From Hyphomicrobiales bacterium (GTDB lineage: Bacteria > Pseudomonadota > Alphaproteobacteria > Rhizobiales > Beijerinckiaceae), in NCBI GenBank assembly GCA_028869185.1, contig JAGWTA010000004.1, positions 62,001 through 126,000 on the forward strand: DNA of 64,000 nt, given 5' to 3'. The position numbers and the translations under genes are program-made. Each line of letters begins with the position of its first letter. The stretch's first letter is position 1. Of the stretch, positions 8,298 to 64,000 are shown piece after piece. The notes below the pieces were generated by a model that was given only the letters and a program-made list of their open reading frames with translations, did no database searches and was not told the origin of the DNA.

Positions 8298-9604
8298 CCC
8301 TGCAGCGAACGTCCGCCGAAGCGGCGCTGGCCGCCGATTACGCCGCCCGCCGCCCGGTTTTGTTCGGCGCGACCAAGATGCGCGACGACGCGATGGCGCG
8401 CTTTCTGGAAGCCGGATTGCCCAACCGGCGCGTCGAGGAATGGCATTACACCGATCTGCGCGCCCGCATGAACGAGGCCGCGCCGCTGCGCAGCGCCGAC
8501 GCGGCCGCAATCGGCGCCGCCAGGGAGCGGCTGACGAGCCTCGAACTTGGCGAAGCGATCGTCGTGGTCATGCTCGATGGCGAGTTTAACCTCGGCCTGT
8601 CCTCGATTGGCGCGCGCCCGCAAGGCGTCGAGATCGGCTCGCTGGCGACCGCGTTGCTCGATCCCGCCAATGCCGATCTCATTGCGCCGCCCGGTCTTGG
8701 CGAAGCCGATTCCATCGTCTCGCTCAACGCCGCATTCGTACAGGGCGGCGCCTTCATCCGCATTCCCGCAAACATGCGGGTCGAGCGCCCTATTGCGCTG
8801 GTCAATCTTCTCTCCGGCGGCCCGCGCCATGCCGCTTACACACGCTCCTTCATCGAACTTGGCGTCGGCGCATCCGCGACGGTCTGGGAGATTTCCGAAA
8901 ATTCCGGCGGCGAAACGCAGGCCAACGATGCGCTCGTCATCAAGCTCGGCGATCTGGCCGAATGCGATCACATTGCACAGGTCCATCATCGCGGCGAGAA
9001 ATCGATTGCTGTGCACACGCTGCTGGCCACGATGGGCCGCAGCGCGCGCTTCGATTCCTTCGCGCTGGTCAAGGACACGGGCTTCGTGCGCCGCCAGATG
9101 TTCGCGCGGCTGGAGCGCGAGGAGAGCCACATCGGTCTGCGCGGCCTCTCGCTTCTGCGCGGCGAAGAACACGCCGACACGACCCTGGTGATCGATCACG
9201 CAGCCGGCCATTGCGAGAGCCGCGAATTCTATCGCACCATTCTGGACGGTTCCGCGACCGGCGTTTTTCAGGGCAAGGTCTGCGTGCGGCAGGGCGCGCA
9301 GAAAACCGACGGGGGCATGAAAAGCCAGGCGTTGATGCTCTCCGACGATGCTACGATGTACAACAAGCCGGAGCTGGAAATTTTCGCCGACGATGTCGTC
9401 TGCGGCCACGGCGCGACGGTCGGCCAACTCGACGACAACCAGATTTTCTATCTGCAGTCGCGCGGTCTCTCGCGCGCCGAGGCGCAGAGCATGCTTTTGC
9501 AGGCCTTTGCGCAGGAGGCGCTCGATCACATCGCCGACGAGACGTTGCGCGAACGCTTCGCCAGCGAGGCGCACGCCTGGCTTTCGATGCGGAGCAAGGC
9601 ATGA
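8294..9604 (+). CDS. sufD: Fe-S assembly protein SufD
   Basis: SufD is the SufB paralogue that completes the SufBC2D scaffold and helps iron acquisition. The protein has 436 residues and begins at GTG 8294, overlapping the sufC stop by four bases. Near the N-terminus NRRVEEWHYTDL is the classic SufD motif for the region preceding the beta-helix. The C-terminal part contains ADDVVCGHGATVGQLDDNQ, with the conserved His and the helix that binds SufC. Sequence outside the core is more divergent than SufB, as is normal. It ends in an ATGA overlap with sufS. Confidence 0.96.
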   Translation: MTLQRTSAEAALAADYAARRPVLFGATKMRDDAMARFLEAGLPNRRVEEWHYTDLRARMNEAAPLRSADAAAIGAARERLTSLELGEAIVVVMLDGEFNLGLSSIGARPQGVEIGSLATALLDPANADLIAPPGLGEADSIVSLNAAFVQGGAFIRIPANMRVERPIALVNLLSGGPRHAAYTRSFIELGVGASATVWEISENSGGETQANDALVIKLGDLAECDHIAQVHHRGEKSIAVHTLLATMGRSARFDSFALVKDTGFVRRQMFARLEREESHIGLRGLSLLRGEEHADTTLVIDHAAGHCESREFYRTILDGSATGVFQGKVCVRQGAQKTDGGMKSQALMLSDDATMYNKPELEIFADDVVCGHGATVGQLDDNQIFYLQSRGLSRAEAQSMLLQAFAQEALDHIADETLRERFASEAHAWLSMRSKA

Positions 9605-10833
9605 ACGCGCCCTACGATATCGAGAAAATCCGGCGCGACTTTCCCATTCTCGCCGAGCGGCCCTACGGCAAGCCGCTCGTTTACCTCGATAATGCAGCCT
9701 CCGCACAAAAGCCGCGCGCGGTGATCGACCGCATGATGCATGTGTACGAATACGAATACGCAAACGTGCATCGCGGCCTTCACTACCTCGCCAATGCCGC
9801 CACCGATGCATTCGAGGCTGCGCGCGAAAGCGTGCGGCGCTTTCTCAACGCCGGTTCAAGCGACGAAATCATTTTCACGCGCTCGGCGACGGAAGCGATC
9901 AATCTCGTCGCTTCGTCCTATGGACTGGAGCATATCCGGCGCGGCGACGAAATCATTCTCACGGTGATGGAGCACCATTCCAACATCGTGCCGTGGTATT
10001 TTCACCGCGAGCGCAATGGGGCGGTGCTGAAATGGCTCGAAGTTGACGACGATGGCCATATTTCGCTGGAGGCGCTCGAAAAGGCCATCACCCCGCGCAC
10101 CAAAATGGTCGCGATCACCCATATGTCCAATGTTCTCGGCGCGCCGGTTCCCGTCGCTGACGTGATCAAAATCGCGCATAAATATGGCGTGCCGGTGCTC
10201 GTCGACGGCTCGCAGGGCGCTGTGCATCTTGATGTCGACGTGCGCGCGCTGGACGCCGATTTTTACGTCATGACCGGCCACAAGCTTTACGGGCCGACCG
10301 GAATTGGCGTGCTCTACGGCAAGAAGAAGTGGCTCGAGGCTTTGCCGCCTTTCAACGGCGGCGGCGAAATGATCGAGATGGTCACCAAGGAGCGCATCAC
10401 TTACAACACGCCGCCGCATCGCTTCGAGGCGGGCACACCGCCGATCGTGCAGGCCATCGGCCTCGGCGCGGCGCTCAGCTACATGGAGCAGATCGGCCGC
10501 AGCGCGATCCGCGCGCATGAGGCGGATCTGACGGCCTATGCGATGGAGCGTCTGTCGCGCATCAATTCTTTGCGCCTCATCGGCCGCGCGCCGGACAAGG
10601 GGCCGATCGTGTCATTCGAGATGAAGGGCGCGCACGCCCATGACGTGGCGACGATCATCGATCGCAGCGGCGTCGCGGTGCGCGCCGGCACGCATTGCGC
10701 CATGCCTCTCATGGAGCGCTTCGGCGTGACATCAACATGCCGCGCGTCTTTCGCGCTCTACAACACACGCGCAGAGGTCGATGTGTTGGCGGAAGCGTTG
10801 ACGCGGGCCCAATCGCTGTTCTCGTGGGGTTGA
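9601..10833 (+). CDS. sufS: Cysteine desulfurase SufS
   Basis: SufS is the PLP-dependent group II cysteine desulfurase that delivers persulfide to the SUF scaffold, usually through SufE or SufU. The 410-residue product starts at ATG 9601, overlapping the sufD stop. The PLP lysine is Lys228 in MTGHKLYGPTG and the catalytic Cys is Cys366 in RAGTHCAMPLM, the short-loop form that separates SufS from IscS. TEAINLV and VMEHHSNIVPW are further family motifs. No sufE lies in the window; a SufE partner would be encoded elsewhere or the protein may work with another acceptor. The next gene begins one base after its stop. Confidence 0.97.
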   Translation: MNAPYDIEKIRRDFPILAERPYGKPLVYLDNAASAQKPRAVIDRMMHVYEYEYANVHRGLHYLANAATDAFEAARESVRRFLNAGSSDEIIFTRSATEAINLVASSYGLEHIRRGDEIILTVMEHHSNIVPWYFHRERNGAVLKWLEVDDDGHISLEALEKAITPRTKMVAITHMSNVLGAPVPVADVIKIAHKYGVPVLVDGSQGAVHLDVDVRALDADFYVMTGHKLYGPTGIGVLYGKKKWLEALPPFNGGGEMIEMVTKERITYNTPPHRFEAGTPPIVQAIGLGAALSYMEQIGRSAIRAHEADLTAYAMERLSRINSLRLIGRAPDKGPIVSFEMKGAHAHDVATIIDRSGVAVRAGTHCAMPLMERFGVTSTCRASFALYNTRAEVDVLAEALTRAQSLFSWG

Positions 10834-10834
10834 T

Positions 10835-11221
10835 ATGAACGCGCCGGACGCCAGGGAAGACCAGCAGCCGAACAAGCCGCAAATCGCGCTTGATCCGGCC
10901 TTTTCGCCCGAGGAACTCGACAGGCTGACCGATGACATCATCGCAGCGCTGAAGACCGTCTACGACCCGGAAATTCCCGCCGATATTTACGAACTCGGCC
11001 TCATCTACAAGGTCGACGTCGACGACTCGCGCTTCGTCAATATCGACATGACGCTGACGGCGCCGGGCTGCCCCGTCGCGGGCGAAATGCCCAAATGGGT
11101 GGAGGACGCTGTCGCCGCCGTTCCCGGCGTTTCCGGGGCGAGGGTGACAATGGTCTTCGATCCGCCGTGGGATCAGAGCCGCATGTCGGAAACCGCGCGC
11201 GTTGCGCTCGACATGTGGTGA
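10835..11221 (+). CDS. sufT: SUF system protein SufT (DUF59/MIP18 family)
   Basis: This 128-residue protein belongs to the MIP18/DUF59 family used in Fe-S cluster maturation or carrier roles. Core motifs are TVYDPEIPADIYELGLIY, the TLTAPGCPVAGEMP segment with its conserved Cys, and VTMVFDPPWDQSRMSE at the C-terminus. The first about 30 residues are low in complexity and probably disordered. It begins one base after the sufS stop, so it is almost certainly in the same transcript. SufT is found in many suf operons and is thought to help cluster delivery to client proteins; the exact reaction is not settled in the literature. Confidence 0.93.
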   Translation: MNAPDAREDQQPNKPQIALDPAFSPEELDRLTDDIIAALKTVYDPEIPADIYELGLIYKVDVDDSRFVNIDMTLTAPGCPVAGEMPKWVEDAVAAVPGVSGARVTMVFDPPWDQSRMSETARVALDMW

Positions 11222-11295
11222 GTGGCGTTGCGAATGCTTATATGAGTTGGATAGCCACTATGCGCGGCCTTTGACGCCGCGCGATGGAGGACGAC

Positions 11296-11679
11296 ATGGG
11301 CGCTCGCCCGAAAATGCGCGTGATGACGTTGACCGAGGCCGCCGCCGCTCGCGTGCGCGATCTCGTCGCCAATTCCGAAAACCCGGCGGTGGGCCTGCGC
11401 GTTGGCGTCGAAAAGGGCGGCTGCGCAGGCATGGCCTATACGATGGAGCTGGCCGACGCCGTGAAACCTGGCGACGAGGTGATCGAGGAGCACGGCGCGC
11501 GTGTCCTGATCGACCCCAAGGCGGTGCTGTTCCTTCTGGGCGCGCGCATGGACTTCGAAAAAACCAAATTGCGTTCGGGCTTCGTCTTTTCCAACCCGAA
11601 CGAGACGTCGGCCTGCGGCTGCGGCGAAAGCGTCGCAATCACGCCCGCAACGCTCGACGCCGACGACGCGCGCCCGTGA
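11296..11679 (+). CDS. sufA: A-type Fe-S carrier SufA/IscA-like
   Basis: A-type carriers accept clusters from the scaffold and pass them to apo-proteins. The three cluster-binding cysteines are visible: Cys43 in EKGGCAGMAY and Cys107/Cys109 in TSACGCGES. The start at 11296 is preferred to the in-frame ATG at 11284 because the earlier ATG forms part of the gatggaggacgac ribosome site, with ggagg five bases before 11296. The product is then 127 residues, slightly longer than the usual 107-122 because of a short C-terminal tail. A 74-base gap separates it from sufT. Its stop overlaps the start of the TfoX-like gene (TGATG). Confidence 0.95.
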   Translation: MGARPKMRVMTLTEAAAARVRDLVANSENPAVGLRVGVEKGGCAGMAYTMELADAVKPGDEVIEEHGARVLIDPKAVLFLLGARMDFEKTKLRSGFVFSNPNETSACGCGESVAITPATLDADDARP

Positions 11680-12074
11680 TGGACGCGGCCGCGCTCGAAG
11701 ATCTGTTCGGTCCATTCGCGCGCGTTGCCCTGAAACGGATGTTTTCCGGCTACGGCGTTTACGTCGGCAACGCCTGTTTTGCTGTCGCGGTCGACGGCGG
11801 CCTTTACATCAAGGTCGATGACGAAGCCGAACGCGCCGCCTTGCAGGCCGCAGAGGCGCGTCCGTTCGCTTACACCCGGTCCGACGGCAAGATGATCGCC
11901 GTCGCTTCGTTTTTGTCGCTGCCGGAAGAAGCTTTCGACGACGAGGACGCCCTGCGCCGTTGGTGCGCTCCCGCGCTCGCCGCCGCGCAGCGGTCGGCTG
12001 CGGAAAAGGCGCGCAAGCTGACGCTGGCGCGCGAAAAAGCCGGTGGCGCGCAGCGCAAGCAGGCCCTGCGCTGA
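11679..12074 (+). CDS. TfoX/Sxy N-terminal domain protein
   Basis: The product has 131 residues and begins MDAAALEDLFGPFARVALKRM. The stretch KRMFSGYGVYVGNACFAVAVDGGLYIKVDD is the hallmark of the TfoX N-terminal domain, followed by a SDGKMIAVASFLSLPEEAFDD segment. The C-terminal 30 residues are Lys/Arg/Ala rich. In gammaproteobacteria TfoX/Sxy controls competence with CRP, but most alphaproteobacterial members are single-domain proteins of unknown role, so no competence function should be assumed. The gene overlaps the sufA stop by one base and probably rides at the end of the suf transcript. The family assignment is firm, the function unknown. Confidence 0.85.
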   Translation: MDAAALEDLFGPFARVALKRMFSGYGVYVGNACFAVAVDGGLYIKVDDEAERAALQAAEARPFAYTRSDGKMIAVASFLSLPEEAFDDEDALRRWCAPALAAAQRSAAEKARKLTLAREKAGGAQRKQALR

Positions 12075-58936: not shown

Positions 58937-59404
58937 TCAGCGCTGGGCGAGCCGCGTGACGCGGTGGCGACCGTAATGTCCGCCCGCCGCCACATAATGG
59001 CGGCCGCGCTGATAGGCGACATATTTGCCGTGGCCGCGGTCGCCGATGTCGACATGCACGAGGCCGCGATGTTCGGCGATGACGCCGCCGACCGCAGGAT
59101 CGCGCCGAAGATGCGCCATAGCCGAAGACTGGCTGGCGCGCAGCGGGCGAAAGTCGATCGCCATGCCGCGAAAGTGAAACGAGTTGCGCACATGGCGCCC
59201 GTTGCAGCCCGCCGTGATTTCCAGCGGACCGATGTTGTTGGCGAGACGATGAATCACGCCCATCAGCTTTGGCTTTACGCAGGCGACGCGCGCCTGAGGC
59301 TGGTAGCAGAGATTGCCGGAACAATGATGCTCGCCGGCAAAGGCATTTTGCGCGCTCAGGACAAGGCCCAGAGACACGCCCGCAATAGCGAGAGTTTTAT
59401 GCAA
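58937..59404 (-). CDS. Secreted M15-like peptidase/YcbK-family protein
   Basis: The 155-residue product begins at TTG 59404 behind cggagtgc. It has a Sec signal (MHKTLAIAGVSLGLVLSAQ, cleavage near NAFA-GE). The core carries the zinc-peptidase M15_3 pattern: NSFHFRGMAIDFRP for the SxHxxGxAxDf motif and LVHVDIG for the final His. A Cys pair (HHCSGNLCYQ) and CNGRHVRN suggest disulfides. The C-terminal 30 residues are His/Gly/Arg-rich. Members cut peptidoglycan peptides or recycle cell wall. It is the last gene before the accessory region. Confidence 0.82.
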   Translation of the reverse strand: MHKTLAIAGVSLGLVLSAQNAFAGEHHCSGNLCYQPQARVACVKPKLMGVIHRLANNIGPLEITAGCNGRHVRNSFHFRGMAIDFRPLRASQSSAMAHLRRDPAVGGVIAEHRGLVHVDIGDRGHGKYVAYQRGRHYVAAGGHYGRHRVTRLAQR

Positions 59405-59880
59405 ATGGATGCACTCCGTTAGTGCCGCGGGCGCAGCTTTTAGTTTGAAAAAAAGGCGGGAATGTGTGTCAATATTTGAAATAATCGTAAGTAGAGGTTA
59501 CTTTTTGCGCGAACGAATCTATTACATGACAATTTTGTAATGAAGTAAGCTTCGTTATGCGCTCAATGGCGCAAGATTGCCTGAAACTGACCAAACAGGG
59601 GGCCGCCGGCGCGTCAACGCGCGGCGCGTGGAGTGCGTTTCCCTGACTTTCTTGGATTAGGCGCGGGGAGGTGAGGGCTTCGCCCATCAGCGCTCCGAAA
59701 CAGAGCGCCTGCGCCATCGCCGTTTGCGCCATGAGCGGGCTGTGGCGGCGGCTGGCTCCCCTTCGTCACTCGATATCGAACCATGTGCCTTGCGCCGAGC
59801 GCTGATTTCCGGCGCATTTTGGAGAATGTTTGCGAGCTTGGCCTTGCGGCATAAGCGCCTCATCTGAGAGTGTTTAGATA
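59405..59880. other. AT-rich gap at the left side of the accessory region
   Basis: About 476 bases hold no gene I can support. The part from 59460 to 59560 is clearly AT-richer than the rest of the window, with a short inverted pair attaca/tgtaat near 59520-59540. A minus-strand frame at 59469-59732 lacks ribosome site and family resemblance. Composition change and loss of core gene order suggest that the border of an integrated element lies here, but no attachment repeat or tRNA end was recognised. Confidence 0.5.
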
Positions 59881-59884
59881 TCAG

Positions 59885-59913
59885 TTGACATTCGCGCGCG
59901 AATCGAGTGTAAA
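59885..59913 (+). promoter_or_regulatory. Sigma70-type promoter with palindromic operator
   Basis: ttgaca (59885-59890) matches the -35 consensus exactly; tgtaaa (59908-59913) follows at 17 bases as a -10 box. The spacer begins with the perfect 12-base palindrome ttcgcgcgcgaa (59891-59902). The XRE gene starts 34 bases after the -10 box. A repressor bound at the palindrome would block RNA polymerase, so self-repression by the XRE protein is likely. Confidence 0.7.
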
Positions 59914-59946
59914 GTGCCTCATAAACAGGTAACGGGAGAGACCGGC

Positions 59947-60294
59947 ATGTCAGGGGAGAAGTTCGGCGCGTTCATCCGGGCGCGGCGTGAGGCCAAGGAG
60001 ATCGGCTTGCGCGAGATGGCGAAAATGATCGGCGTGAGCCCGACCTACGTTTCGAAGGTCGAGCGCGACGAGTTCCCGCCGCCTGCCGAAGACAAGATTC
60101 GCCTGATTGCCGGGGTGATCGGTTGCGACGTTGACGAACTTCTGGCGCGGGCGGGCAAGGTCGCCTCGGACTTGTCTGACATCATCAAGCGCAACCCGGT
60201 CGAAGTCGCAGCGCTGCTGCGGACGACCAAGGGCCTTTCGGCGGATGAACTCGCCCGGCTGGCCCGCGAGGCGCAGAAGACAAAGGACAAGTGA
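59947..60294 (+). CDS. XRE-family helix-turn-helix regulator
   Basis: The start at 59947 (MSGEKFGAFIRARREAKEIG) follows aacgggagag; an earlier in-frame GTG at 59914 would lie at the transcription start and is rejected. The 115-residue protein has a Cro/CI-type HTH at about 17-60: LREMAKMIGVSPTYVSKVERD is the recognition region. The C-terminal half is helical (LSDIIKRNPVEVAALL) and could mediate dimer formation. It is the first gene of the accessory operon and precedes an ImmA-like protease by 52 bases, the classic repressor/anti-repressor pair of integrative elements such as ICEBs1. It probably represses its own promoter. Confidence 0.9.
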   Translation: MSGEKFGAFIRARREAKEIGLREMAKMIGVSPTYVSKVERDEFPPPAEDKIRLIAGVIGCDVDELLARAGKVASDLSDIIKRNPVEVAALLRTTKGLSADELARLAREAQKTKDK

Positions 60295-60346
60295 ACGCCT
60301 GAACAGCGGTTGGTTTTGAAGCAATGCAGATAAGGATGAAAGCACG

Positions 60347-61123
60347 ATGGGATTGAAAGTTCCCTTTATGTCGGATGAGGCGATCGAAAGGGACGCGGAA
60401 GCGCTTCTTGCCGACTACGCGCGGGAACGCGGGGTGCCGATCGAAGCACCGATCCCGATTGAAGACATCATCGAGAAGCACTTGAAGATCGGCGTCGAGT
60501 TCGACGATACGCACCGGCTGTTCGGCGTGCCACGTTCCGGCATCGGCTTCGATCCCGATATTCTCGGCGCAATCTTCTTCGATCAGAAACGCATCGTGAT
60601 CGACGAAAGCCTCGATCCCGAAACCAATCCCGCCAAGGAAGGGCGCTATCGCTTCACTCTCGCCCACGAAGGCGGCGGGCACTGGCGCTTGCATCGCCAT
60701 CTGTTCGGCAAAGACCCGGCGCAGACATCGCTTCTTGAACCGAATGCCGCGCCGAGCGTCGTTTGCCGAACCAGTCAGGCAAAGGAGCGGATCGAGTTTC
60801 AGGCCGATCTGTATGCTTCCTGCCTGCTAATGCCGCGCAAACTGGTGTTCGCCGCCTGGGATGAGGCGTTCCCCGACCGCAAGCAGCGGGTGCTTCAGCC
60901 TGCGACGCCGATCGACCATCCCTTCGTCGAAATCGCCCGCTTCGAGTGCCGCATTCCCGGTGCCGAGTTCACGGAAACCGACGATCAGGCTTTGGACAGT
61001 TTCGCCAAGCCGTTCGCCGAGAAGTTTCTCGTTTCGCCGATCGCCATGCGCATTCGCCTCGAAAGGCTCGGGCTCCTGCACCGGATGGTGCCATTGCAGC
61101 GCCTACTCACCGACCGCACGTAA
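60347..61123 (+). CDS. ImmA/IrrE-family metallopeptidase
   Basis: The 258-residue protein has the ImmA/IrrE fold: RYRFTLAHEGGGHWRLHRHL is the zinc-peptidase helix and FQADLYASCLLMP supplies the third ligand region. The motif is H107-E108-G-G-G-H112: three residues instead of two separate the Glu and second His, a change from HExxH that could alter geometry; the following HWRLH keeps the family pattern. In ICEBs1, ImmA cuts the ImmR repressor after DNA damage and releases element genes. Here the adjacent XRE protein is the obvious target. Start ATG 60347 gives MGLKVPFMSDEAIERDAEAL. The gene is not secreted. Activity is inferred. Confidence 0.87.
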   Translation: MGLKVPFMSDEAIERDAEALLADYARERGVPIEAPIPIEDIIEKHLKIGVEFDDTHRLFGVPRSGIGFDPDILGAIFFDQKRIVIDESLDPETNPAKEGRYRFTLAHEGGGHWRLHRHLFGKDPAQTSLLEPNAAPSVVCRTSQAKERIEFQADLYASCLLMPRKLVFAAWDEAFPDRKQRVLQPATPIDHPFVEIARFECRIPGAEFTETDDQALDSFAKPFAEKFLVSPIAMRIRLERLGLLHRMVPLQRLLTDRT

Positions 61124-61149
61124 ACCCCTTTTTTTGAGGAGATCGTCAA

Positions 61150-61419
61150 GTGTCAACTGAACGAAGGCAAACCTCGAAACAGGAGCGGGAGCCCACCGCT
61201 TTCGAGACGCGCGACTTCTATCTCGCCTGCTTCCTGCGCTGCTCGGGCTACGAACTTCAGGGGCTTCGCTCGGAAGGGCCGCGCAAGGTCTTCGTGTTTC
61301 GGGATCGCGCCTCGCGGCGCGATGACGTGATGGCCTTCTACGGCGACGCGACCAGCGTTCGCCCTTTGGCTTTCGCCGCCACCATCAAGGACATGAAAGG
61401 ACTGCTCCACAATGGCTGA
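61150..61419 (+). CDS. DUF5659-like small protein, 89 aa
   Basis: This basic protein reads FETRDFYLACFLRCSGYELQ in its first half and FVFRDRASRRDDVMAFYG in its second, with an alternating strand/helix pattern as in DUF5659 (a short alpha-beta domain found on mobile elements). The start at 61150 is a GTG. The first 18 residues are charged and probably disordered. It follows the protease by 26 bases and its stop overlaps the start of the next gene by eight bases. Function unknown. Confidence 0.7.
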   Translation: MSTERRQTSKQEREPTAFETRDFYLACFLRCSGYELQGLRSEGPRKVFVFRDRASRRDDVMAFYGDATSVRPLAFAATIKDMKGLLHNG

Positions 61420-61636
61420 ACCGCAAGACAAACCGCCATTCCAGCGCGCCAAGAGCGGGCAGGTCCGCGAAGCCCTCGACCGGCTCGAAGGGCTTGTCGT
61501 CGATGGCCTGAAGCACGGCTTCTTCGATTACTCGATCGCCTGCGAAGTCACCAACGGCGGCAAGCGGCAACTCGTGATCCGCGCTGGCAAAAGCCACAAG
61601 TTCACGATCCTCGAACATGAGGTGCCGCTGCTGTAG
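61412..61636 (+). CDS. Hypothetical protein, 74 aa
   Basis: I do not recognise this small protein. It starts MAEPQDKPPFQRAKSGQVRE, then has a helix (ALDRLEGLVVDGLKHGFFDY) and a beta hairpin (SIACEVTNGGKRQLVIRAGK) ending TILEHEVPLL. It is soluble. It overlaps the preceding gene by eight bases, so translation is probably coupled. The pair may act together, for instance as an accessory to the replication genes that follow. Confidence 0.65.
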   Translation: MAEPQDKPPFQRAKSGQVREALDRLEGLVVDGLKHGFFDYSIACEVTNGGKRQLVIRAGKSHKFTILEHEVPLL

Positions 61637-61767
61637 CGACGCCAAGCGGCGATCCCTGAGACGGGGACGTCAGACGATGCAAATCTCTTTGGGCACAACG
61701 TCATCGGTGGGAATCCGAGACCGGAGGCCAGGAGCACGGAGCGGCGGAACCGCCCGTGAGGCTTTCG

Positions 61768-62010
61768 ATGAAACGTCTCGACGCTGCCAACGACAATGAT
61801 CTGAAGCGCCAGATCGCCCGCACCCGCGACATCTGGCAACCGCGCATGGGCCGCGACCTCAACGACGAGGACGCGCGGCAAATCCTTCATTCCGTCACCG
61901 GCTTCTTCGGCGTCCTGGCCGAATGGCGACGCGCCGAATTGCTCGCCGCCGCGAATGATTGCGCCGCGCCGGTCGAACCGAACGATGGCGAGGTGCGCCA
62001 TGACCGCTGA
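61768..62010 (+). CDS. Hypothetical element protein, 80 aa
   Basis: The start at 61768 (MKRLDAANDNDLKRQIARTR) follows gtgagg at good spacing; GTG 61756 is a weaker alternative. The product is helical, with DIWQPRMGRDLNDEDARQIL and VTGFFGVLAEWRRAELLAA. Similar short proteins are common just before Toprim primase genes on alphaproteobacterial integrative elements; the function is unknown. The end overlaps the next gene by 11 bases. A 131-base gap with stem-loops precedes it. Confidence 0.7.
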   Translation: MKRLDAANDNDLKRQIARTRDIWQPRMGRDLNDEDARQILHSVTGFFGVLAEWRRAELLAAANDCAAPVEPNDGEVRHDR

Positions 62011-62896
62011 AGCCATCGCCAAGGCCCTTGGAGGGCACCGGGCGGGCGCAACATGGATGGCGCGCTGCCCGGCCCATGACGATTCAAGCCCGAGCCTTGC
62101 GATCAGCGCGGGATCGAACGGCAAAGTGCTGGTGCGCTGCCATGCCGGTTGCGACCAGCGCGACGTGATCGCCGCCCTCATCGAGCGCGGCTTGTGGGAC
62201 GCGACCGGCAAATGCCCTGGCGGCATTGCCCGAAAGCACCGGAAGGCCCTTGAGCGCGAACCCGATCCTGATACCAAAGCGCGCACCAAGGTGGCGCTTG
62301 CCATCTGGCGGGCGTCGCAAGACATTGCGGGCTCGCTCGGCGAAACCTATTTGCGATCGCGCGGGCTCGCGCTTTCGTCGCGCCCGAGTTTGCGTTTCCA
62401 TCCTGGCCTGAAGCACGCGTCGGGCGGCGTCTGGCCTGCCATGGTGGCGCTGGTGGTGCATGGTGAGACCGGCGAAGCCCTTGCCGTTCATCGCACTTTT
62501 CTTGCCCGCAACGGTCACGGAAAAGCGCCGGTCGATCCGCCGAAGATGATGCTCGGGCCTTGTCGCGGCGGCGTGGTTCGCCTGGGCGAACCCGGCGACG
62601 TGCTGATGGTCGGCGAAGGGATCGAGACTTGTCTTGCCGCCATGCAAGCCAGCGGCAGACCGGCATGGGCGGCGCTTTCTACCTCGGGCCTTCGCTCGCT
62701 CGATCTGCCACGCGACGTTGGCGACGTGATCGTGCTCGCCGATGGTGATGCGCCAGGCGAAGCGGCGGCGCAGCACTGCGCCCGGCGATTGCAACGCGAA
62801 GGGCGAAGCGTTCGGATCGCCCGCCCGCCAAGCGGCATGGATTTCAACGATCTGCTCAAGGCCCGCAACCTCGCTTCATCGGAGGGCGCGCAATGA
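62000..62896 (+). CDS. Toprim-domain primase-like protein with zinc finger
   Basis: ATG 62000 opens a 298-residue product. Near the N-terminus, Cys23-Pro-Ala-His26 and Cys47/Cys51 (VRCHAGCDQ) form a CHC2-type zinc finger, as in bacterial and phage primases. A central linker is followed by a Toprim domain from about residue 205: VLMVGEGIETCLAAM carries the catalytic Glu and VIVLADGDAPG the DxD acid pair. This is the layout of primases on phages, plasmids and integrative elements. The next gene, a P-loop ATPase, overlaps its stop in ATGA, so the two should work together in element replication. Confidence 0.87.
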   Translation: MTAEAIAKALGGHRAGATWMARCPAHDDSSPSLAISAGSNGKVLVRCHAGCDQRDVIAALIERGLWDATGKCPGGIARKHRKALEREPDPDTKARTKVALAIWRASQDIAGSLGETYLRSRGLALSSRPSLRFHPGLKHASGGVWPAMVALVVHGETGEALAVHRTFLARNGHGKAPVDPPKMMLGPCRGGVVRLGEPGDVLMVGEGIETCLAAMQASGRPAWAALSTSGLRSLDLPRDVGDVIVLADGDAPGEAAAQHCARRLQREGRSVRIARPPSGMDFNDLLKARNLASSEGAQ

Positions 62897-64000
62897 GCAC
62901 CGAATCCATGCCTGAACCGGAAAGCCTGATCCTCGATGCCATCGAGGCTGCCGAGGCGATCCCCGATCCGCTGGTCGGGATCGTCGAGCAGACCGCAACC
63001 AATCCGGGCGCGCCCTTCATGCCGGAAGCCCTGGAAGCGCTCGCGGCGCTTAAGCAGGACAACCGCGCCGCTTTCGAGGCGCTGCGCTCGCAACTCAAGA
63101 AGGCCGGGTGCCGGGTGACGGCGCTCGATGACGCCATCGCCGAGGAGAACGGCGATCAAGGCGGGCGCGGGCCGACGCAAGCCGACATCCTGATCGACCT
63201 CGCCCAATCCGTCGCCCTGTTCCACGCACCGGATGGCAGCGGCTATGCCGACCTCGACATCAACGGCCATCGCGAAACCTGGCCGATCCGCGCCAAGGGC
63301 TTTCGGCGCTGGCTGGCGCGGCGTTTCTTCGAGGAGACGGGCGGCGCTCCAAGTTCGGAAGCGCTGCAATCGGCGCTGAACGTCATCGAGGCCAAGGCGC
63401 ATTTCGATGCGCCCGAACGGCAGGTGCATATCCGCGTCGGGGGGCGCGACGGGCGGCTCTATCTCGACCTCGGCGACGAGGCATGGCGCGCCATCGAGAT
63501 CGACGCCACCGGCTGGCGCATCGTTGACAATCCGCCTGTTCGTTTCCGGCGTGCATCCGGCATGAAGGCGATGCCGATTCCGTTGAGCGGCGGCTCGATC
63601 GAAACCTTGCGCTCATTCCTCAATGTGCAGACCGACGCCGATTTCGTGCTGGTGGTCGCCTGGGCGCTGGCGTGCCTTCGCAATCGCGGTCCCTATCCGG
63701 TGATCGTTCTGTCGGGCGAGCAGGGTTCGGCGAAATCGACCTTCTCGGCGATCCTGCGGGCGCTGCTTGATCCGAACACCGCGCCATTGCGGGCCTTGCC
63801 GCGCGAGGATCGCGATCTGTTCATCGCCGCCAGCAACGGCCATGTGCTGGCCTTCGACAACGTGTCGGGCCTTCCCGCCTGGATATCGGACACGCTTTGC
63901 CGCCTCGCCACGGGCGGCGGATTCGCGGTGCGCCAACTCTATTCCGATCAGGATGAAGTTCTGTTCGACGCCGCGCGCCCGGTGATCCTCAACGGGATCG
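62893..64000 (+). CDS. P-loop ATPase of the element replication module (partial)
   Basis: The frame starts at ATG 62893 and is still open at the window edge, giving at least 369 residues. The N-terminal 260 residues are a poorly conserved region with IDLAQSVALFHAPDGSGYADL and GFRRWLARRFF. Walker A is GEQGSAKST at 275-283, followed by LRALPREDRDLFIAASNGHV, the Walker B-like LAFDNVSGL, and ARPVILNGI near the cut. The type is known from integrative elements and phages behind Toprim primases and may be a replicative helicase or loader. Further motifs lie outside the window. The link to the primase is by operon overlap. Confidence 0.8.
   Translation, partial: MSTESMPEPESLILDAIEAAEAIPDPLVGIVEQTATNPGAPFMPEALEALAALKQDNRAAFEALRSQLKKAGCRVTALDDAIAEENGDQGGRGPTQADILIDLAQSVALFHAPDGSGYADLDINGHRETWPIRAKGFRRWLARRFFEETGGAPSSEALQSALNVIEAKAHFDAPERQVHIRVGGRDGRLYLDLGDEAWRAIEIDATGWRIVDNPPVRFRRASGMKAMPIPLSGGSIETLRSFLNVQTDADFVLVVAWALACLRNRGPYPVIVLSGEQGSAKSTFSAILRALLDPNTAPLRALPREDRDLFIAASNGHVLAFDNVSGLPAWISDTLCRLATGGGFAVRQLYSDQDEVLFDAARPVILNGI

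Follow-up and report, generated by a model that had tools for sequence, protein, structure and literature searches.

What kind of genetic unit begins at the right edge of a 64,000-nucleotide stretch of DNA (hereafter the window) from a Hyphomicrobiales bacterium of the family Beijerinckiaceae? The window (G000:C35:62001-126000) lies on contig C35 (JAGWTA010000004.1) of a 2.9-Mb draft assembly in 63 contigs (GCA_028869185.1); the contig continues for 49.5 kb beyond it, and coordinates above 64000 are window numbering carried into this extension. Gene calls and Pfam searches confirmed seven rightward genes at the edge, from the XRE gene at 59947 to the P-loop protein gene at 62893, including genes for three small proteins (a DUF5659 protein, p74 and p80), while Pfam and domain scans bore out the XRE, ImmA-like protease, Toprim primase and P-loop ATPase identities proposed in a first-pass annotation. 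The P-loop gene, which codes for a helicase-like protein, runs past the window edge and stops at 64848. Judged from the sequence, these genes are the left half of a ~15.2-kb element that extends from 59753 to about 74945 and carries 16 genes in this copy (gene calls and family scans). The whole is very probably a site-specific integrative element, some 15 kb long and organised in the manner of a 'cassette chromosome'.

The first-pass annotation had guessed at the start of an integrative element or prophage and suggested extending the sequence to the right. The extension contains a large serine recombinase (LSR) gene, which, together with a recurrent gene order and tRNA-linked ends across copies, supports the integrative element. 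A prophage, or an integrative and conjugative element (ICE) with transfer genes, was rejected because no capsid, large terminase, tail or conjugation gene was recognised among the 16 genes. The ends of the element, the tRNA target of its family, its gene content and recurrence, the division of the LSR gene at the attachment core and a conserved RNA are documented at the sequence level. Excision, replication and transfer are predictions from the sequence.

A helicase-alignment, pattern-based scan of genome contigs yielded 245 loci, the best 80 of which were kept, and 50 loci (the first 43 of those 80, L148, L152 and five viral loci) were compared with the window proteins. All seven window genes occur in the same order in 18 of the 50 (L085-L090, L092-L096, L099, L105, L114, L116, L118, L127 and L152) and in L059, and such an arrangement of seven relatives in 19 loci is beyond chance. 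Six further loci hold a partial set: L091, L098, L100 and L110 are cut by contig ends, L103 has no XRE and ImmA matches, and L123 has no p80 and primase matches. Among the hosts are Nitrobacter, Mesorhizobium, Enterovirga, a Kordiimonadales isolate and alphaproteobacterial metagenome-assembled genomes (MAGs); L114 and L103 belong to MAGs labelled as other than alphaproteobacteria, for which binning errors are possible. The LSR gene is intact in, for instance, two culturable hosts, Kordiimonadales IMCC3096 (L099) and Nitrobacter sp. Nb-311A (L089). In L096 (Enterovirga rhinocerotis; 8860-11727) the part from about codon 20 of p80 to codon 549 of the helicase gene is inverted and adjoining parts are missing. 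Within the order, 27 of 397 genomes encode a helicase homologue, and among 26 stretches fetched around these homologues the whole module was present only in L059. The LSR was found at E <= 1e-120 in 7 of 385 genomes of the class. The same operon at this site in all relatives, named in the first-pass annotation as the contrary outcome, is not what was seen: none of five congeners searched yielded this LSR, three of them containing only relatives of 26-30% identity, and two of these genomes being 57% and 76% complete.

The ends of the copies are constant. A core, TGGCT(C/G), lies 185-204 bp ahead of the XRE start in 15 of the 21 left ends examined. Of the 17 right ends fetched, 15 have a tRNA gene to the right of the LSR gene that is oppositely oriented and reaches the core with its 3' end; eleven of these tRNAs are Gln-CTG, one is Gln-TTG and three are Asn. 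The right end of L114 is at a tRNA-Asn gene and that of L152 at a tRNA-Gln gene, while four LSRs from the class sample, not chosen for tRNAs, all lie at tRNA 3' ends (two Asn, two Gln-TTG). Altogether, 21 of 24 right ends are at tRNA-Gln or tRNA-Asn genes, counting the window's own, which has no tRNA; the right ends of G419 and G434, where no tRNA was called, speak against a uniform tRNA target. tRNA genes are common integration sites (PMC12884075), and nearly only tyrosine integrases are reported in Sinorhizobium meliloti (PMC11476347). The flanking repeat that the first-pass annotation proposed to look for is present at the left of this copy as the core TGGCTCCCC, while its right counterpart has probably been lost to a Mu-like prophage. 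The start of the element is moved from 59405 to 59753, with 59405-59752 being host DNA; the supposedly AT-rich gap ahead of the XRE gene has a GC content of 0.54 and is not empty, containing a conserved coding fragment at 59753-59854.

The lost right end of this copy and the broken recombinase genes of copies G430, G435 and G436 would fit a chromosomal defence island that is no longer moving. This is quite unlikely, given the patchy spread of the LSR in the class, the constant ends and the two kinds of tRNA target in distant hosts, which together point to past mobility of the family. In G435 (Mesorhizobium; C22 325455-326903) the recombinase gene contains an inverted internal segment. Directly left of the element, L094 (6589-6933) and L095 (533-685) have remnants of a recombinase 3' end, or sequences resembling such remnants, which hint at tandem or composite insertion into a single tRNA site. 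In L258 (1511-5110) two LSR genes of the family stand in tandem before a tRNA-Gln(TTG) gene.

In the integrative element, the attachment core is part of the recombinase gene. The core is in frame, exactly 60 nt past a conserved PFD(M/L/I/F)(L/I)xE motif, in 20 of 24 LSR 3' ends, the exceptions being G521 and G615b (no motif), the window copy (no core) and G436 (frame-shifted). In the integrated state the LSR open reading frame (ORF) crosses the core and continues on the antisense strand of the tRNA gene, which adds, for example, WLGDLDSNQD (Gln) or WLPGLDSNQRP (Asn), and it overlaps the tRNA by 15-63 nt in all ten copies checked. At the left end, the same frame continues from the core into a conserved tail, WLPFxxxYRTMCLAPxxDFRRxLExxRELxLAA, which is complete in 16 of 21 left ends (all 15 that match the core pattern, and G436 behind a TGGTTG core) and reduced to its second part in G417 and G435; the stop is at codon 34 in 14 left ends and at codon 35 in one. 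Divergence per site in the tail is 0.243, 0.111 and 0.466 at the three codon positions (15 left ends), which argues for selection of the tail as a protein, and of the two other forward frames one is open in 4 of the 15 and the second in none. L094 (G424) provides a natural fused frame: to the left of the element, a fragment of a recombinase gene continues in frame into the tail (105 codons). Since the core lies inside the LSR gene and the tail follows it in the same frame at the left end, the LSR encoded by a circular form would carry the tail and integration would separate the two; integration should consequently swap the C-terminus of the recombinase. Several observations count against this: no tail was seen in three of the 21 left ends (G428, G430 and G434), among the reverse frames of the tail region one is open in 13 of 15 copies and the others in 4 and 7, and the LSR-tail fusion was unmatched in plasmid records and, by pattern, in viral contigs. 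Integration also alters the 3' end of an element's gene in the case of SSV-type archaeal integrases and of mycobacteriophage repressors whose genes contain attP; the present case differs in that it concerns a large serine recombinase whose tail becomes target-encoded.

The target of the window copy is probably a tRNA-Asn gene. Its left core is identical to the 3' end of tRNA-Asn in congeners, three of which (G002, G004 and G005) have this gene upstream of cysK in the expected orientation. In a recombinase tree, from which the fragments G429, G430 and G435 were omitted and in which 8 of 18 inner branches remain open, the window LSR falls into a 100/100 clade with those of G420, G803 and G423, all three at tRNA-Asn genes. 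Other LSRs at Asn sites (G431 and G662) are placed elsewhere in the tree, so either the target changed more than once or these forks are wrong. Against a tRNA-Asn target stand the loss of the window's own right end, which leaves the assignment indirect, the distance from tRNA-Asn to cysK of 3.9-5.7 kb in the three congeners versus 0.9 kb from core to cysK here, the different genes between cysK and the tRNA or core in congeners and window, and three other genomes of the family with no tRNA near cysK; in the remaining two congeners the contig stops short. In the own assembly, tRNA-Asn gave no pattern match, and the best hit (84%) is at a spot called as tRNA-Phe by ARAGORN, so the right junction probably falls in an assembly gap. 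Contigs C9 and C33, considered as the right flank, share single genes with the right flank of a congener without clear synteny and were not accepted.

The 3' end of the window LSR gene is abnormal: similarity to G423 stops at about 74945 and is followed by TGTAGGGGGACGTGATCTTTGGCAG. The 12-mer GATCTTTGGCAG occurs within 113.5 kb only at 74959 and 75087. Mu ends start with TG and carry repeated transposase sites, and the GATCTTTGGCAG pair may represent the left end of a Mu-like prophage inserted in the last LSR codons. Besides the genes listed in Table 1, this prophage encodes a head protease, major head protein, sheath and baseplate, and its right end lies outside the contig. With its own S24 repressor, transposition, terminase, portal, head and tail genes, the right neighbour was ruled out as part of the same element. 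Two relatives of its transposase, at 46-48%, were found besides its own in 99 genomes of the family and none, by pattern, in viral contigs; owing to this scarcity the left end of the prophage is judged from the 12-mer alone. The Mu-like prophage has probably replaced the right end and made this copy immobile.

The gap between p74 and p80 has a mean column identity of 88% (18 copies), and its 1- and 2-nt indels speak against coding. RNAalifold predicted a 120-nt leader with 35 pairs in five helices. Across 26 copies, 97.2% of 909 cells are standard pairs, falling to 34-50% in slid controls. Changes on both sides affect 4 pairs and 12 cells, against means of 2.0 and 2.8 after shuffling, and 13 and 0 of 500 shuffles attained these values; the covariation score is 0.133 versus 0.104 when shuffled (reached by 0 of 500), and one pair of helix 4 changes from C-G to U-A in six copies; covariation is moderate because the leader sequences are alike. 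Less favourable to a conserved fold are the number of further pair types (23 versus 20.9 shuffled, a number attained in 38 of 500 shuffles) and the stability of the window leader taken by itself, which is not unusual (z -1.36). Comparison of the copies nevertheless establishes a conserved structured RNA upstream of p80. A GUGAGG motif sits in the 3' strands of helices 5 and 4, six nt before the p80 start codon, and the leader could in this way mask the p80 ribosome site. Rfam gave no match in 61640-61770 (cmscan of 59400-64000, 4227 families, E up to 5), with two matches elsewhere. When 64 other loci were searched, the leader model recovered eight additional copies, each of them within this element, and two hits at E 0.06-0.08 were ignored. 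In the class sample the model matched 3 of 385 genomes, all LSR carriers; the other four LSR carriers gave no hit.

For p80, the first-pass annotation considered an anti-defence or copy-control role, as for the other small proteins; a connection with the recombinase is the better fit. L257 and L258 each have an ORF bearing the p80 motif no more than about 220 bp upstream of an LSR gene, and the other six window genes were not found there. On this basis p80 is the leading candidate for a recombination directionality factor acting with the LSR. It tells against this assignment that the neighbourhood comes from two loci. Among the four LSR loci of the class sample, two contain p80-like matches, and the other two are contigs of 8.0 and 5.3 kb. 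A whole-genome search for p80 identified 6 of 385 genomes, a count that adds little because the alignment already held the L257 and L258 rows and the hits in G521 and G615 arise by construction; in the sixth genome, G684, no LSR is present inside its 2.5-kb locus.

The helicase of 651 aa was modelled by AlphaFold with a pLDDT of 78.8 and pTM of 0.68. VIA-align placed the SaPI5 primase-helicase 7ola first (Z 19.1, rmsd 6.1, 379 aligned residues, 8% identity), followed by poxvirus D5/E5, and Cch was absent from the 50 rows listed; in Foldseek, AsfvPrimPol led the ranking (E 1.2e-8) and SCCmec Cch 5dgk came sixth (E 9.3e-8, TM 0.34/0.41). A helicase profile found only P-loop matches among PDB sequences. 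On the model, the Rep-like helicase fold behind a Toprim primase looks like a replication-initiation module of the kind found in Staphylococcus aureus pathogenicity islands (SaPIs) and the staphylococcal cassette chromosome (SCC). More distant homologues of the helicase belong to other types of element and were treated as separate families; such integrative elements have a tyrosine integrase by Pfam in L072 and L076, proteins of the same blastp cluster in L061, L069, L079 and L083, HTH_17 proteins in L061 and L072, and an LSR with DUF2924 in L060.

This helicase fold, the XRE/ImmA control and the small size would also suit a phage satellite resembling a phage-inducible chromosomal island (PICI) or P4, which would rely on its own primase-helicase for excision and replication and on a helper phage for packaging. 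Helicase relatives occur in 21 contigs filed as viral (best 72% identical) and in two records of one phage (31%), as well as in 31 plasmid records, none reaching 80% coverage. The 51-aa protein p51 weakly matches terminase small subunits over residues 2-24 (PHROG 1889, E 1.4e-4), a hint of satellite-like packaging. Set against this, no full-length small terminase, capsid or tail gene was recognised, and an LSR relative was found in only three viral contigs by the pattern-based scan, the best at 63% over a fragment. The candidate small terminase p229 was dropped, its AlphaFold model being too poor to read (pLDDT 53) and tblastn in phages empty. SaPIs and PICIs share the Rep-type primase-helicase module (7ola), repressor control and small size, and differ in having a tyrosine integrase where a serine recombinase is present here; no packaging-interference gene was recognised here. 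A satellite is unlikely.

XRE/ImmA pairs are typical of ICEs such as ICEBs1 and count in favour of an ICE or integrative mobilizable element (IME) that has lost its relaxase. No relaxase or transfer domain was detected among the 16 genes of this copy, and other copies, whose cargo was scanned in part, keep the same core around different cargo. Serine recombinases do occur in IMEs, and the Tn4451 type shares a single serine recombinase and a short common core (PMC5704250); here, however, no relaxase was recognised and the target is a tRNA 3' end. Such a derivative is very improbable, and a cassette-like integrative element remains preferred.

In the integrative element, XRE would repress the operon and ImmA would relieve repression on a signal. 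The RNA leader would gate translation of p80 and, via overlapping genes, of the primase and helicase. p80 and the LSR would then excise the element at TGGCT, leaving the tRNA behind, and the circle would re-fuse the LSR gene to its native 33-aa tail, giving the integrating form. The primase and helicase would copy the circle, HsdRMS would protect and stabilise the element, and entry into new cells would take place via a helper, which may be a phage, a conjugative plasmid or transformation. More tentatively, a protein switch can be envisaged: the native-tail LSR integrates, while the tRNA-antisense tail alters activity or stability, so that excision needs p80, which is co-translated with the replication genes behind the RNA leader. 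Direction would thus be set jointly by DNA rearrangement, RNA and protein, a possibility that we regard as speculative.

Table 1. Features of the integrative element and its right neighbour (window numbering, continued beyond 64000 on the contig extension)
Feature	Coordinates	Strand	Evidence or remark
Left attachment core TGGCTCCCC (attL)	59753..59761	.	Copy homology begins about here; equals tRNA-Asn 3' end in congeners
Split-off 3' end of recombinase gene, 33 codons + stop, tail WLPF...YRTMC...	59753..59854	+	Conserved tail at left ends
XRE-family repressor	59947..60294	+	Pfam HTH_31 E 1.8e-11, HTH_3; present in copies
ImmA/IrrE-like metallopeptidase (M78)	60347..61123	+	Pfam PF06114 E 4e-5, 23.8 bits vs cut-off 22
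DUF5659 protein	61150..61419	+	Pfam PF18903 E 8.2e-7
p74, 74-aa conserved protein	61412..61636	+	Kept together with core genes
Structured RNA leader, five helices, ends at p80 start codon	61648..61767	+	26-copy alignment
p80, 80 aa, candidate recombination directionality factor	61768..62010	+	p80-like ORFs upstream of LSR in L257, L258
Toprim (DnaG-like) primase with DUF7146	62000..62896	+	DUF7146 E 1.3e-33, Toprim_3 E 7.9e-22; PHROG 510 DNA primase E 1.2e-46
SaPI-Rep/D5-like helicase	62893..64848 (62893..64000 inside window)	+	AlphaFold model, fold matches
p176	64830-65360		Gene call
p229	65357-66046	+	Gene call
p51	66006-66161		Gene call; weak PHROG 1889 match
HsdR	66370-68802		PADLOC REase_I 1140 bits
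HsdM	68806-70260		PADLOC MTase_I 707 bits
HsdS	70257-71960		PADLOC Specificity_I 572 bits
DUF3800	71957-72676		Family scan
p158	72673-73149		PHROG 16230 replication protein E 5.2e-31
Large serine recombinase (LSR)	73410-74960		Resolvase E 8.8e-23, Recombinase E 2.4e-15, Zn_ribbon_recom E 1.4e-10
Mu-like prophage	74946-113543, to contig C35 end		S24 repressor, transposase, transposition protein, terminase, portal, head, tail genes

The ImmA-like protein has a weak PDB match to CapP (E 0.0071), and p74 has no match in Pfam, PHROGs or NCBIfam. A 117-aa minus-strand ORF (65540-65893) was discarded as a shadow of p229, the third codon positions of which diverge most in all five comparisons. Between p51 and HsdR, GGTTCGC occurs three times within 28 bp (66266-66303); the triple repeat is also found in G416 and G419, G422 has other repeats, and none were found in the stretch taken from G424 and G435. 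Located downstream of the helicase operon, these repeats are a possible iteron-type origin.

By family scans, HsdRMS appears to be a complete type I restriction-modification gene set. Relatives of HsdR are encoded in 13 of the 50 loci and are 82-97% identical to that of the window, except for one short piece at 58%; in these copies HsdM is 79-95% and HsdS 39-57% identical, and the divergence of HsdS against conserved HsdR and HsdM indicates that specificity was exchanged while the engine was kept. Other cargo, in the part that was scanned, comprises type III restriction genes (G420), Fic (G427), HNH (G428) and an HTH-M78 protein (G425), and in G521, for which the left end of the element was not placed, BREX genes lie upstream of the LSR gene. 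Genes for a DUF2254 membrane protein and a TspO/MBR family protein accompany restriction genes as cargo in L089 (17801-19551) and L092 (19028-19495).

The layout resembles that of SCC, including SCCmec, and the Enterococcus cassette chromosome (ECC). Such elements encode LSRs and a helicase plus priming partner, frequently carry hsdRMS and integrate at the rlmH 3' end, and ECC moved in the presence of a conjugative plasmid (PMC6222049, PMC10061031, PMC7581432). Features shared with the present element are the LSR, the helicase and its priming partner, variable cargo in which hsdRMS is frequent, a fixed insertion site where a conserved translation-related gene ends (its 3' end) and an unsettled transfer route. 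The Cch/Rep helicase of SCC is also matched, by fold only, with nothing beyond the P-loop by sequence. The LSR scores far below the NCBIfam cut-offs for CcrB (108.5 bits, cut-off 900), CcrA (64.9, 700) and CcrC (44.6, 900). Instead of the rlmH 3' end, tRNA-Gln or tRNA-Asn genes are targeted. The element further differs in having a single LSR, a Toprim primase instead of CcPol-MP, a core inside the recombinase gene, an RNA leader and mostly alphaproteobacterial hosts. It thus appears SCC-like in layout and is not, by these comparisons, an SCC member. In a literature search of limited depth no account was found of this group of elements, of LSRs that specialise in the 3' ends of tRNA-Gln/Asn genes, or of an LSR gene divided by the attachment site it contains; novelty in print is weakly supported.

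The family would extend the SCC design, with its serine recombinase, helicase and primase, restriction cargo and fixed translation-related site, to alphaproteobacteria with tRNA targets. The leader is a candidate new RNA family, and the recombinases, the candidate directionality factor and the tRNA sites are candidate genome-insertion tools. If true, the exchange of the recombinase end at each integration would be a directly testable way of setting the direction of recombination.

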